The notes under the pieces are model-generated. The model saw only the letters and a list, made by a program, of their open reading frames with translations, was not told the origin of the DNA and did no database searches. DNA of 64,000 nucleotides from Chthonomonas sp. (GTDB taxonomy: Bacteria; Armatimonadota; Fimbriimonadia; Fimbriimonadales; Fimbriimonadaceae). Position 1 is the first letter of the stretch. Each line of letters starts with the position of its first letter. Location of the stretch: assembly GCA_016788585.1 (NCBI GenBank), contig JAEURP010000007.1, positions 126,001 to 190,000 of the forward strand, given 5' to 3'. This document shows, one piece after another, positions 3,859-63,055 of the stretch. The position numbers and the translations under genes were made by a program.

Positions 3859-4812
3859 TTACTTCTTGTTGCGTCGTCGTCGTGCAAGAGCAGCGAGGCC
3901 GAGGCCGAGAGCGGCCATCGAACCTGGTTCTGGAACAGCTCGGACTCCATAGAAATGGATGTCGTATGCTTCAGTACCGGCTACATATGCACCATTGGCG
4001 ACATTAGCACCGTCCAGTCGAAGCGCATAGGTCCCAGCCGTATTGCTGCTTGTAGCAAGCATGTTGCCATTCGCGAAATACGAGGCTGTCAGCCACTCGC
4101 CTGCCTCAACAACTCCGACATCCGACGCACCAACGTTAGCCGCTGTATTATATCGGCCGACGGCGATGTAATAGGACTGACCAGCAACAAAGTTGTAGCT
4201 GATTGCTGAGTCCGTGGCTGCATCGGTCGTTTCGTCGTTCCACTCAAGAGTGTTACCATTCATGTCGAGAAGGTAAATCTCGGTGTCCATTGAGGGTTCA
4301 AACGTATCGATAACGTGGACGCCAGCACTAACCGTTCCGAGTCCTGTAACAGACACAGCTGATTGTGAGTGGGTCGCCGTATAGGTCAAAGTTGATGTCG
4401 AGGAAACGCCAGTAACTTTGTAGTCGACCGAGTGAGCGGCACCAAAGCTGTACCATTGGTTCATTCGTTGAATGCCGCCGGCTAGTGAGAACATCGACTG
4501 AATGGATGTTGAGCTAGTTGCCGACGTCGTCGTTCGACCAACGAGCGATCCGGTGAAGCCCGCAAGATCAAGCGCCATTCGGTTGCGATAGACGCCCATG
4601 GCCTGCGCGCCAAAGTTCAGCTTGAAGTGGTCGGCAGAGCCAAGGCCTGGGACGGTAAGGCTCGTGCCACTCGTCGTGCCCTGAACCACATCGCCAATAG
4701 CCATGCTGATATTGTTGGGGGTAAGCCACGTGTCGTTCGCCTCAGTCTCAAAGTGACCAAATGAAGCAGCAGGACCAACAGCCAACGCCGAAAGTAATAA
4801 AAGTTTCTTCAT
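3859..4812 (-). CDS. PEP-CTERM sorting-domain protein
   Basis: A secreted protein of 317 residues with a signal peptide (MKKLLLLSALAVGPAASFG). The body resembles a pre-peptidase C-terminal-like beta domain: FETEANDTW near the start, then a segment around DTEIYLLDMNGNTLEWNDE and SYYIAVGRYN. It ends in a PEP-CTERM tail: VPEP, a short hydrophobic helix (MAALGLGLAALA) and RRRRNKK. In known systems such tails are cut by an exosortase at the membrane; no exosortase is in this window. ATG 4812 gives a clean signal peptide with GGGAG upstream, and the longer frame to 4938 covers the promoter. The specific function is unknown. Confidence 0.88.
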   Translation of the reverse strand: MKKLLLLSALAVGPAASFGHFETEANDTWLTPNNISMAIGDVVQGTTSGTSLTVPGLGSADHFKLNFGAQAMGVYRNRMALDLAGFTGSLVGRTTTSATSSTSIQSMFSLAGGIQRMNQWYSFGAAHSVDYKVTGVSSTSTLTYTATHSQSAVSVTGLGTVSAGVHVIDTFEPSMDTEIYLLDMNGNTLEWNDETTDAATDSAISYNFVAGQSYYIAVGRYNTAANVGASDVGVVEAGEWLTASYFANGNMLATSSNTAGTYALRLDGANVANGAYVAGTEAYDIHFYGVRAVPEPGSMAALGLGLAALARRRRNKK

Positions 4813-4899
4813 ATTTTCCAACTCCCAAAAAGGCTCACCAGAGCCAAAAATTGTCTTCCGACAAACCTTATTTGGCGGATCCAGAGAATCCGTGTTCCT

Positions 4900-4934
4900 A
4901 TTATAAAGCGTAGTGACCAAATTGGTATGACCAA
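4900..4934 (-). promoter_or_regulatory. Promoter and palindromic site upstream of PEP-CTERM gene
   Basis: The minus strand has a perfect TATAAT at 4900-4905. Sixteen bases further upstream lies TTGGT-ATG-ACCAA (4922-4934), which overlaps a second palindrome ACCAA-A-TTGGT (4916-4926). The same TTGGT-N3-ACCAA palindrome occurs upstream of the next PEP-CTERM gene, so a shared regulator is plausible. It covers the place where a -35 box would be. Confidence 0.6.
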
Positions 4935-4990
4935 ACACTTCACAAAACGCAAATCCCGGTAATCATACGTGCAGGGGATTTTGAACATGC

Positions 4991-5050: not shown

Positions 5051-5707
5051 TTACTTCTTGTTGCGTCGTCGTCGAACGACGGCGGCGAGGCCGAGGCCAA
5101 GAGCAGCCATCGTGGTTGGCTCAGGAACAGCCGATGCGCCCGTGAGAGCGATCGTGTAGGTTCCCGTGCCGCCACCGGCACCGGTTCCCCAGCCAGTCAG
5201 TGCGCCAGCAGCACCTGCGCCGTCTGGAGCCTTGATGGTGGTCCAAGGAGAGCCGAGGCCCCAAATCAGGCCCCCAGCGGAGGATGGACCAGCGCTGCCG
5301 CTGTAGGCGTCGATGCCGAGAAGGTAATAGCCAGCAGTGATCAAACTGGTGGAGTTGTTGATTCTCGAGGGGCCAACGCCGGCCGGAGTGTCATCGTTGA
5401 AGACGACGCCAGTGCCATCCAATCGGAACAGCATAAGGCGCGTATCAAACGTGGCGGCTCCGCCGTCGGCTGCGTCCGTAGATGCGATGAAGGAGTTAGC
5501 GTCTTTGATCTCGATCAGATAGAGGTCAGCGCGCTCGTTGGCGGTTGCGCCAGCGCGCGTACCGGTGATCGAAGTTAGCGAAGCGTGGAGGGTGCCTGTC
5601 GCTTGTGCGGTGCTAGCAAGGTAGCCGGCATCGCCGACTTCAGTCCACGTGGCTGCGAATGAGGCCGACGCGATCGTCACGAAGGCCAACGTAAGAATAT
5701 TCTTCAT
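5051..5707 (-). CDS. PEP-CTERM sorting-domain protein
   Basis: A small secreted protein of 218 residues. It has a signal peptide (MKNILTLAFVTIASASFAA), a Thr/Ala/Gly-rich body with segments such as FDTRLMLFRLDGTGVVFNDD that resemble the neighbouring paralog, and the tail VPEPTTMAALGLGLAAVVRRRRNKK-like sorting signal at the very end. The start has AAGGAA at good spacing. A hairpin (GCATCA/TGATGC, 5721-5742) lies in the leader just before the ribosome-binding site. The two neighbouring PEP-CTERM genes are each followed by their own terminator, so they look separately transcribed. Role unknown. Confidence 0.87.
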   Translation of the reverse strand: MKNILTLAFVTIASASFAATWTEVGDAGYLASTAQATGTLHASLTSITGTRAGATANERADLYLIEIKDANSFIASTDAADGGAATFDTRLMLFRLDGTGVVFNDDTPAGVGPSRINNSTSLITAGYYLLGIDAYSGSAGPSSAGGLIWGLGSPWTTIKAPDGAGAAGALTGWGTGAGGGTGTYTIALTGASAVPEPTTMAALGLGLAAVVRRRRNKK

Positions 5708-5866: not shown

Positions 5867-7207
5867 ATGGACGCCGATGCCTTTCACGCGCAAGTAGTGG
5901 ATCAATATTCCCGCCACATCAACCCCGCTTTGGCGAAGCTGATGAATTTTGCCGGCTTCGGCGTCGAGATGCGTGGCGAGGGCTGCTATCTCTACGACCA
6001 CGAGGGCCGCGCTTTTCTTGATTGCCTTGGGTCGTATGGCGTATTTGCCCTCGGCCACCGACATCCAAAGGTCGTCGAGGCCGTGATCGCCCAACTAGGG
6101 CGACTACCGATGTCGGGCAAGGTCTTTTTCAACCCGCGGCAGGCGGAGCTGGCAACGCGCTTGTCCGAAGTCTCACCAAATGGGTTGGAGTTCACCTTCT
6201 TTAGCAACTCCGGTGCAGAATCTGTTGAAGCGGCGCTGAAGTTCGCCAAGGGCGCTACGGGTCGCAGCAAGATCATCGCGACCGAAGGCGGCTACCACGG
6301 CAAGACTATCGGCGGCCTAAGCGTCACCGGCCGCGAGAAATATAGAAAGAAGTTCGGCCCCCTCATGCCCGGCGCGGAGTTCGTTCCGTTCCCGAGTGCC
6401 CCCTCCTCTCCCCTCGCGGGAGAGGAAGTTCGAGGAGTGTTGAGCGACAGTGAGACAAGCTCGAACAGGAGAGGGGTTGCTTGGAGCGAAATTCTCGACG
6501 CCATCGACTCTGACACGGCCGCGGTCATCATCGAAACCGTGCAGGGCGAAGGCGGAATCCACCTCGCCGCGCCGGGTAGTTTGGCCGCGATCCGAGCTCG
6601 AACTAGGGAGGTCGGCGCGCTGATGATCCTGGACGAAGTGCAGACTGGCATGGGCCGCACCGGGCGGCTCTTCGGCTGCGACCACGAGGGCATCGAGCCC
6701 GACATTATGACCCTCGCCAAGGCGCTCGGCGGCGGCGTCATGCCCATCGGTGCGACTCTGTTTACCGAGTCGGTTGGCACCGCGATCTTCGGCGAGAATC
6801 CCTTGATGCACACCTCGACTTTTGGGGGCAATCCGCTCGCTTGCGCGGCCGGAATCGCGACTCTAGACGTAATCCAGGACGAAGGCCTTTGCGAACGCGC
6901 AACGATCATGGGCGATCGCATGATGGCGGGTCTGCGCGACATGCAATCGCGGCATTCTGACCTCGTTTCAGAGGTGCGCGGCATCGGTCTCATGATCGGC
7001 GTCGAGTTCTCGATGGACGAAGTCGGCGAACTCGTCATCGCGCAGATGACCAAGCGCGGCGTGATCGCTGCGTACACCTTGAACAACCCGCGCGTAATCC
7101 GAATCGAGCCGCCACTAATTATCTCAGAGGCGCAGGTCGACGAAGCGGTGCGAGTGTTCGAAGAGGCTGTCGTCGAGACCGGCGAACTGCTGGCCATGCT
7201 CGCGTGA
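5867..7207 (+). CDS. Class-III PLP aminotransferase, putrescine/ornithine type
   Basis: Fold-type I aminotransferase of 446 residues, resembling putrescine aminotransferase (PatA) and acetylornithine aminotransferase. The PLP-phosphate segment NSGAESVEAALKFAK (about 114-128), the cofactor Asp in MILDEVQTGMGRTG (D256) and the Schiff-base lysine in TLAKALGGG (K285) are all present. Residues about 177-204 do not fit the family: they are translated from a GC-rich palindromic repeat inserted in frame (6399-6476), at the point where relatives pass directly from the VPF strand to the next helix. The gene appears leaderless. It overlaps recO as GTGA. Substrate is not certain. Confidence 0.88.
   Translation: MDADAFHAQVVDQYSRHINPALAKLMNFAGFGVEMRGEGCYLYDHEGRAFLDCLGSYGVFALGHRHPKVVEAVIAQLGRLPMSGKVFFNPRQAELATRLSEVSPNGLEFTFFSNSGAESVEAALKFAKGATGRSKIIATEGGYHGKTIGGLSVTGREKYRKKFGPLMPGAEFVPFPSAPSSPLAGEEVRGVLSDSETSSNRRGVAWSEILDAIDSDTAAVIIETVQGEGGIHLAAPGSLAAIRARTREVGALMILDEVQTGMGRTGRLFGCDHEGIEPDIMTLAKALGGGVMPIGATLFTESVGTAIFGENPLMHTSTFGGNPLACAAGIATLDVIQDEGLCERATIMGDRMMAGLRDMQSRHSDLVSEVRGIGLMIGVEFSMDEVGELVIAQMTKRGVIAAYTLNNPRVIRIEPPLIISEAQVDEAVRVFEEAVVETGELLAMLA
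6399..6476 (+). repeat. Palindromic repeat inserted in frame within a coding gene
   Basis: The segment begins CCCCTCCTCTCCCCTCGCGG and ends AGGAGAGGGG. It contains CTCTCCC/GGGAGAG (6406-6412, 6418-6424) and GTTCGAG/CTCGAAC (6428-6434, 6460-6466). It resembles the intergenic CCCCTCCC...GGGAGGGG palindromes at 23.5 and 24.5 kb, but here it is translated as about 28 extra residues (SSPLAGEEVRG and following) inside an aminotransferase. Confidence 0.8.
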
Positions 7208-7938
7208 GCGGCGAGGTTTCGCTCACTGGATTGGTGCTGCGCCGCTGGGATCAGGGCGAAAGCGACCGCCGCCTGAGCGTGCTGACGCGCGAGAAAGGCC
7301 GCATCTTGGTCACGGCGAAGGGCGCGCGCAAGTCCGGCTCGCGCCTGGCTTCTTGCTCTGAGCCGTTGGCCCTTGCTTCTTTTCAAATCGCGAGCGGGAA
7401 GGTCAATAACTTCATCACCCAAGCCCAAACCCACGCCGGCTTTGGCAAACTGCGGTCCGATTACGACCGCCTGATTCTGGGTTTGAGCTTTGCTGAGTTG
7501 GTGTCGGCGGTCGCGCCCCTCGAACACCCGAACCCAGACCTCTTCGACACCGCGATCATTGCTTTAAAGACCATCGAGACCGCCAGCAATCCGCTCGCCG
7601 CCTCGCTCTGGTCGCAACTGATGCTCATGAAGGTCGAAGGGACTTTGCCGAACTGGCTGTCTTGTAGCTCGTCGGGTAAGAAAATGAACGAGGATCCGGC
7701 TTGGCTCTCGCCGACCGCAGGCGGCTACCTCTCGCCAGGCGTCGCCGATGACTACGTGGACCGCTTCTTGGGTAGCTCGGAGGCGTTGATCGCTTTGTCG
7801 AAGCTCGCCGAGTTGGAAGAACCTCCAGCGAACTTAAAGCGAGCGGACGAATGCATGAAGATTCTCGCTCGCTTCTGGGAACACCACGCCGGGCGCGACC
7901 TGCCAGCTACCAAAGCCGTCCTGCAGAGCTTAACCTAA
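7204..7938 (+). CDS. recO: DNA repair protein RecO
   Basis: Recombination mediator of 244 residues that, with RecR, helps load RecA onto SSB-coated single-stranded DNA. The N-terminal OB-fold segment is recognisable (GLVLRRWDQGESDRRLSVLTR, then GRILVTAKGARKSGSRLA). The middle is helical, as in the family. The usual zinc-finger cysteines of the C-terminal half are mostly missing; only WLSCSSSGKK remains there. The GTG start overlaps the aminotransferase stop. The 3' end overlaps the convergent ligD by 9 bp. Confidence 0.9.
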   Translation: MSGEVSLTGLVLRRWDQGESDRRLSVLTREKGRILVTAKGARKSGSRLASCSEPLALASFQIASGKVNNFITQAQTHAGFGKLRSDYDRLILGLSFAELVSAVAPLEHPNPDLFDTAIIALKTIETASNPLAASLWSQLMLMKVEGTLPNWLSCSSSGKKMNEDPAWLSPTAGGYLSPGVADDYVDRFLGSSEALIALSKLAELEEPPANLKRADECMKILARFWEHHAGRDLPATKAVLQSLT

Positions 7939-23485: not shown

Positions 23486-23522
23486 CTCCCCTCCCAAGCT
23501 TGGGAGGGGCCGGGGGAGGGTT
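23486..23522. repeat. CCCCTCCC-AAGCTT-GGGAGGGG palindromic repeat
   Basis: A perfect 22-bp palindrome (23488-23509) with a G-rich right extension (CCGGGGGAGGG). The same 22 bp recur at 24500-24521 with a C-rich left extension, so the two copies look like opposite orientations of one element. Confidence 0.85.
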
Positions 23523-23618
23523 GACGGTAGGAGGGTGTGAGCTTAAGGTGCAGCAAGCTGCGAAGCCGCCAAACGGGGCCAATCCAAAGCGGCAGCAAGC
23601 AGCCCGCACTCTAAAGCT

Positions 23619-24266: not shown

Positions 24267-24470
24267 GCAGAAGAATTGCGTGGAAAACGAAGACATTTCC
24301 CTGCCCGCGCAAAACATTTGCGAGCCCGCGCAAAACATTTGCGAGCACGCAAATTGTTTCCGCGAGCACGGAAAACTCTTGCGCGGGCAGGGAACTTTGT
24401 TGCGCGGGCTGGCAAATGTTCTGCGCGTGCAGGAAAAATTGTTACGCGTGCTGGGAATCCTCTCCGGAAG
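24267..24470. repeat. Array of 20-21-bp palindromic units, copy A
   Basis: The array begins GCAGAAGAATTGCGTG and continues with eight degenerate 20-21-bp units. Several are self-complementary with different but matching stems (TTTGCG...CGCAAA, TTTCCG...CGGAAA). The first unit, TTCCCTGCCCGCGCAA, is the exact reverse complement of the fifth, TTGCGCGGGCAGGGAA, so these can pair around units 2-4. A related copy B lies at 62.9 kb. Open frames rich in RAGK-type codons inside it are repeat artefacts. Confidence 0.85.
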
Positions 24471-24487
24471 GCTTTCGTATGCCATCA

Positions 24488-24523
24488 ACCCTCCCCCTGC
24501 CCCTCCCAAGCTTGGGAGGGGAG
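24488..24523. repeat. CCCCTCCC-AAGCTT-GGGAGGGG palindromic repeat
   Basis: Second copy of the 22-bp palindrome (24500-24521), here with a C-rich left flank (CCCTCCCCCTG), which complements the right flank of the copy at 23.5 kb. Confidence 0.85.
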
Positions 24524-62862: not shown

Positions 62863-63055
62863 GCAGAAGAATTGCGTGAAAAACGAAGACATTTCCCTGC
62901 CCGCGCAAGACATTTGCGAGCACGCAAATTGGTTCCGCGGTCACGCAAATTCTTTCCGCGTGCAGGAAAAACTCTTGCGCGGGCAGGGAATTTTGTTTCT
63001 CGGGCTGGCAAATGTTGTGCGCGGGCAGGGAAAAGTGTTACGCAAGCAGGGAGAT
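62863..63055. repeat. Array of 20-21-bp palindromic units, copy B
   Basis: It shares the 5' block GCAGAAGAATTGCGTG...GAAGACATTTCCCTGCCC with copy A at 24.3 kb and then continues with seven or eight variant units. Stems include TTTGCG/CGCAAA and TTTCC/GGAAA, and TTCCCTGCCCGCGCAAG is the exact reverse complement of CTTGCGCGGGCAGGGAA further on. It lies 78 bp upstream of the FN3 gene, in the same orientation relative to that gene as copy A has to its own. The DNA from 63056 to 63215 holds nothing I can identify. Confidence 0.85.

Follow-up and report, generated by a model that had tools for sequence, protein, structure and literature searches.

How does a GC-rich palindrome come to lie, in frame, in the middle of a class-III aminotransferase, and what kind of element is it? 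The gene belongs to the window analysed here, a stretch of 64,000 nt from a 2.38-Mb assembly in 27 contigs, to which Fimbriimonadaceae MAGs (Armatimonadota) are the nearest relatives with a name. This is a draft genome of MAG type, and our analysis covers the assembled sequence only. The observation and the interpretation of the initial annotation stand, apart from two corrections: one on where the relatives of the palindrome lie, the other on how exact the empty site is. We consider it very probable that the palindrome, here called element A, is a small non-autonomous element that inserted into a loop of the aminotransferase, and that the peptide it encodes is near-neutral ballast.

The host gene and the palindrome within it

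The aminotransferase is encoded by an intact open reading frame at 5867-7207 (+; 446 aa) that matches Pfam Aminotran_3 with an E-value of 2.7e-108. The top Foldseek match of its predicted structure is the putrescine aminotransferase YgjG (4uox; TM 0.89, 42% identity), and its score lies below the NCBIfam equivalog cut-off. By domain and fold, the protein is a class-III aminotransferase, of the putative putrescine type. Every alignment-invariant residue is present, K285 included, in agreement with the initial annotation, which had held that the frame is kept and the catalytic residues remain. The gene is followed by recO (7204-7938, +), and the two closest congeners show the same order; because the recO start codon overlaps the aminotransferase stop, a frameshift upstream would probably affect recO translation as well. 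Two adjoining genes at 3859-4938 and 5051-5707 (-) have near-identical 3' ends, and the one at 5051-5707 encodes a PEP-CTERM sorting motif.

Element A occupies 6401-6478 (+), that is, 78 nt or 26 codons for residues 179-204 (PSSPLAGEEVRGVLSDSETSSNRRGV). It had been drawn at 6395-6482 with residues 177-204; the core of that interval stands, and a few flanking bases fall outside the repeat. The ends of the A consensus are imperfect 9-bp inverted repeats, CTCCTCTCC and GGAGAGGGG, which in this copy pair at 6403-6411 and 6468-6476 (both +) and enclose an inner stem-loop (GTTCGAG...CTCGAAC, 6428-6466, +). Such terminal repeats are a feature of MITEs, and the outer stem of nine pairs that they form in A includes one compensatory change, in copy L010. 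An alternative local hairpin, TCCTCTCCC-CTCGC-GGGAGAGGA, could form at 6404-6426 (+). The aminotransferase copy folds better than its shuffles (-40 kcal/mol, z -2.8).

Searching the genome with this copy returned 11 near-full matches, itself counted, the others at 80-91% identity with E-values down to 3e-27, and three further partial matches at E < 1e-3, which makes a chance resemblance untenable. Across the family, compensatory changes occur at 4 of 26 pairs, with 10 double-changed cells against a shuffle mean of 3.7 and none of 500 shuffles as high. The inner stem covaries family-wide at A positions 40-55 and 41-54, and a C-G to G-C change at 6439/6456 is confined to the aminotransferase copy. 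As the eleven sequences are few and related, the case for maintenance of the palindrome is good but falls short of overwhelming. By our own gene calls the other 13 copies are all intergenic, several of them a few bases 3' of a stop codon. Inspection of the copies revealed no consistent flanking target-site duplication, and a search of Rfam gave nothing relevant. The initial annotation had sought the relatives of the palindrome among the intergenic repeats of the window; those at 23486-23527 and 24482-24523 belong to a different family, C, and the true relatives of A lie elsewhere in the genome.

The empty site and the age of the probable insertion

An old loop shared by the orthologs had been named as the finding that would speak against an insertion. 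The segment is missing from all 30 aligned orthologs that span the site, drawn from the family and order, and the stretch from GREKYR to QGEGG measures 76 residues here, 55 in the congeners G001 and G004, and 47-48 in the non-congeners counted, so that this objection fails. The G001 and G004 enzymes share 87-88% protein identity with this one and have at the site 7-8 short, unrelated loop residues (PQEGAS in G001). The net gain over the congeners is 63 nt rather than 78, so the empty site is not base-perfect, and about 15 nt of the congener loop were either lost with the insertion or removed by a separate later indel. An empty site was also found at an intergenic A plus B copy (L002) upstream of amine oxidase. 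The intergenic copies L006 and L008 have no matching congener sequence and hence no empty site to show.

Within the genomes searched, the family is private to this species. It is absent from the other 290 genomes of a 291-genome Armatimonadota sample and from 60 relatives, with only 24-nt fragments in one of these, and it has no plasmid match. The aminotransferase copy differs from its nearest subfamily at 7 of 78 bases (9%), against a dS of about 1.1 to the two closest congeners; the insertion therefore probably postdates the split from those congeners. That the family is mobile, as initially proposed, is supported by copy number, species-privacy and empty sites; transposition itself is what we infer from these rather than something observed.

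It is unlikely, but worth weighing, that A entered the gene in the common ancestor with G001 and G004 and was later mostly deleted there, leaving a scar of 7-8 residues. The net excess over other genera is 84 nt, close to 78 plus 6, and the G001 loop holds a remnant-like CCCCTC...GAGGGG stretch: CCCCTCGC matches element A, with 2% of shuffles as good. This match leaves some room for an older, partly deleted insertion in G001, and to that extent it limits the best explanation. However, the aminotransferase copy belongs to a young subfamily, its 7 differences in 78 bases contrasting with a between-species dS of about 1.1, the congeners yielded no A copy, and the G004 loop has no similarity to A. 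As a separate observation, the G001 and G004 aminotransferases (L050 and L051) are 94% identical overall and nearly unrelated in the loop (residues about 176-195), which suggests local recombination or a hot spot.

We favour a more recent insertion. In this scenario, a small non-autonomous palindromic element, bounded by the terminal repeats and inner stem-loop described above, would have multiplied in one Fimbriimonadaceae lineage, and one copy would have inserted into the aminotransferase loop, most likely after the split from the closest relatives. Because the copy amounts to 26 codons and is stop-free in frame, it left intact the reading frame, the catalytic core and the recO start that overlaps the gene. 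The insert would then be translated and held in frame via purifying selection on the enzyme, the new peptide most likely being a disordered surface loop without a function of its own.

Inserts of other families and the fate of the peptides

The initial annotation had called for a search of the genome for further proteins containing similar segments. None of the remaining A copies lies within a gene, but a second family supplies such segments. Two inverted hairpins with a short spacer are the dimer form associated with REPINs, and family C has about 20 sites in the genome as REPIN-like dimers of 94-103 nt, in each of which a spacer separates a pair of inverted GC-rich hairpins; a search of three congeners and one outgroup did not find the family. 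In the window, two inverted C half copies (23486-23527 and 24482-24523) lie 954 nt apart in intergenic DNA and flank a stretch with a 21-nt tandem array. Related 21-nt arrays with internal inverted repeats occur 38.5 kb apart, at 24269-24478 and 62865-63053.

The intact chorismate synthase gene carries two in-frame C inserts, a first at residues about 170-202, whose second half is a D-type hairpin, and a second at about 299-333; the intact amine oxidase gene carries one in-frame C insert with a net gain of 25 aa. The first chorismate synthase site is empty in 22 of the 22 relatives compared and the second in 20 of 22. At precisely this second site, the sister species G004 has another palindromic dimer (D), G001 has none, and the more distant G010 has a longer, unrelated-looking loop. 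The amine oxidase site is empty in both G001 and G004. A 291-aa open reading frame (L166) that contains a half C copy, and that has no family match, is probably a further gene with a translated insert. In a 464-kb sample of the genome (89% coding), 7 of 15 strong pyrimidine-arm hairpins lie inside genes, although known repeats guided part of the choice of this sample.

Between the first chorismate synthase site here and the second in G004, a stretch of about 36 nt within a D half is identical. In the 5' part of chorismate synthase (gene loci L165:726-1988 and L202), third-position difference from G004 is only 20%, compared with 46% for the aminotransferase, a hint of gene exchange.

Structure predictions place the peptides in loops. 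An AlphaFold2 model of the aminotransferase, built from 40 sequences, has a mean pLDDT of 89.7, and residues 181-201, between a strand and a helix, are the sole segment below 50, a value that is partly expected since no homolog covers the insert. The initial annotation had called for modelling whether the insert is a surface loop, and this result agrees with one. The chorismate synthase model is predicted to be disordered at 171-198 and 306-331, which correspond to its two inserts. Peptides predicted from the palindromic inserts include GEEVR/GVLSDSETSSNR and LGGAGGGLNTEADPH. That the repeats can create new peptide segments, as had been suggested, is shown at the level of sequence, and their translation in the cell is probable.

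To assess translation, we compared synonymous and non-synonymous differences with an intergenic control, a comparison that replaces third-codon-position bias. That bias was downgraded as proof of translation, given that intergenic copies show some of it in the same register (13 of 23). The two full intragenic C copies differ at seven sites, five of them synonymous, and the aminotransferase copy differs from its subfamily at six unambiguous sites, of which four or five are synonymous. Read in this frame, the intergenic A copies have 6 synonymous and 13 non-synonymous differences (6/19), which equals the chance expectation. Pooled, 9-10 of 13 intragenic differences are synonymous versus 6 of 19 intergenic ones (Fisher p 0.041 to 0.015). 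For this small number of differences, the excess suggests that purifying selection acts on the reading frame or the encoded peptide. Gene calling by intact reading frames is biased towards in-frame copies and cannot detect insertions that break the frame, and for this reason we give no rate of frame retention.

Selection could also mean that the inserts are adaptive, the palindrome-derived peptides being kept for regulation, for partner binding or for mRNA structure within the operon, and this we regard as slightly less probable even than the ancestral insertion discussed above. The intragenic copies differ mostly synonymously, the hairpin of the coding copy is preserved by a compensatory change from C-G to G-C, and two species have different palindromes in one and the same chorismate synthase loop, all of which such a function could explain. 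The inserts are nevertheless predicted to be disordered, all of the sites are loops, and purifying selection against stops and misfolding accounts equally well for the synonymous bias, which was in any case drawn from few differences. The peptides are most likely near-neutral ballast.

Two further readings are very improbable. An ancestral hypervariable loop that merely resembles the repeat would fit the loop being 7-8 residues longer in the clade that unites this genome with G001 and G004 than in other genera, and the strong difference between the G001 and G004 loops, but it would leave unexplained why ten other loci, with covarying stems, match the segment over its entire 78 nt at 80-91% identity, and why no ortholog has anything comparable. 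Misassembly of a repeat copy into the gene, conceivable in a draft with many repeat copies near contig ends, is contradicted by a copy that is unique in sequence, by gene halves that join in one frame at the orthologous position, and by the same pattern at three more sites in this genome and at one in the assembly of another species.

Relation to known palindromic elements

The likeness to Rickettsia palindromic elements (RPEs) that had been suggested is borne out by in-frame palindromes inside conserved enzymes. In Rickettsia, RPEs are palindromes that are translated as part of genes (PMC2229807, PMC10969869; reviewing Ogata et al. 2000), and guanylate kinase, one tested RPE-bearing enzyme, is active with its insert (PMC2229807). 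Compared by description, both kinds are small, lineage-specific palindromes found in intergenic DNA and in frame within conserved enzymes. However, RPEs are 105-146 bp long (PMC2229807), longer than A (78 nt) or C (94-103 nt), and nearly half of them lie inside open reading frames (PMC10969869), compared with 1 of 14 A copies. The host phylum differs as well, A being limited to 1 of 291 Armatimonadota genomes.

GTAG/CGTC-tagged REPs are similar in that they are short palindromes, mostly at gene 3' ends with a minority inside open reading frames, where they add 20-30 residues in Opitutus terrae, R. conorii, Thauera and others (PMC3733652). Neither tetranucleotide occurs in 6401-6478 on either strand. 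Lacking the length of RPEs and the tag of these REPs, A is not filed as a member of either group, although by analogy it appears to work like RPEs and intragenic REPs. REPINs are a further point of comparison (PMC3116915). C resembles them in its dimer form, any RAYT link of C being putative, and A is a single nested palindrome and no dimer. ERIC/RU and other enterobacterial MITEs are mobile intergenic repeats with open reading frames fused in genes (Delihas, PMC2759123); they share with A stop-free frames and occasional in-frame fusion to conserved enzymes, but differ in length and host, and no consistent target-site duplication was seen in A.

RAYT proteins were considered as mobilisers. The genome has two RAYT-type Y1 transposase (Y1_Tnp) genes (L123 and L124, on contigs C6 and C26), each flanked by its own inverted repeats, which are unrelated to A and C; neither gene's flanks contain an A or C match. 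A role for these genes in moving A was set aside on this basis, action in trans being still conceivable.

Elements of this kind are already known in several phyla; the A and C families and their host are new within the literature searched, which included no paper on Armatimonadetes and repetitive extragenic palindromic sequences. What the locus adds is an Armatimonadota example of in-frame palindrome insertion like that of RPEs, for which near relatives supply the empty sites. Because the congener genes carry no insert, a different one or two, the effects of the peptides on aminotransferase and chorismate synthase are directly testable, and whether such elements are neutral, and how they stay in frame, can be approached by comparison. 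A bolder proposal, which we hold only tentatively and lean against, is that several unrelated palindrome families in a Fimbriimonadaceae genus repeatedly and independently colonise the same tolerant enzyme loops, as chorismate synthase loop 299-333 with its C dimer here and D dimer in the sister species would illustrate, with similar low-complexity peptides then kept by selection. If true, this would be a continuing RPE-like route to protein loops outside Rickettsia.

Intergenic copies could have consequences of another sort. At L002:1410-1600 (contig C11), A and B repeats lie directly upstream of the amine oxidase start, where the congeners have an ordinary purine-rich stretch that resembles a ribosome-binding site. 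The GGAGAGGAGG end of the element may now act as such a site.
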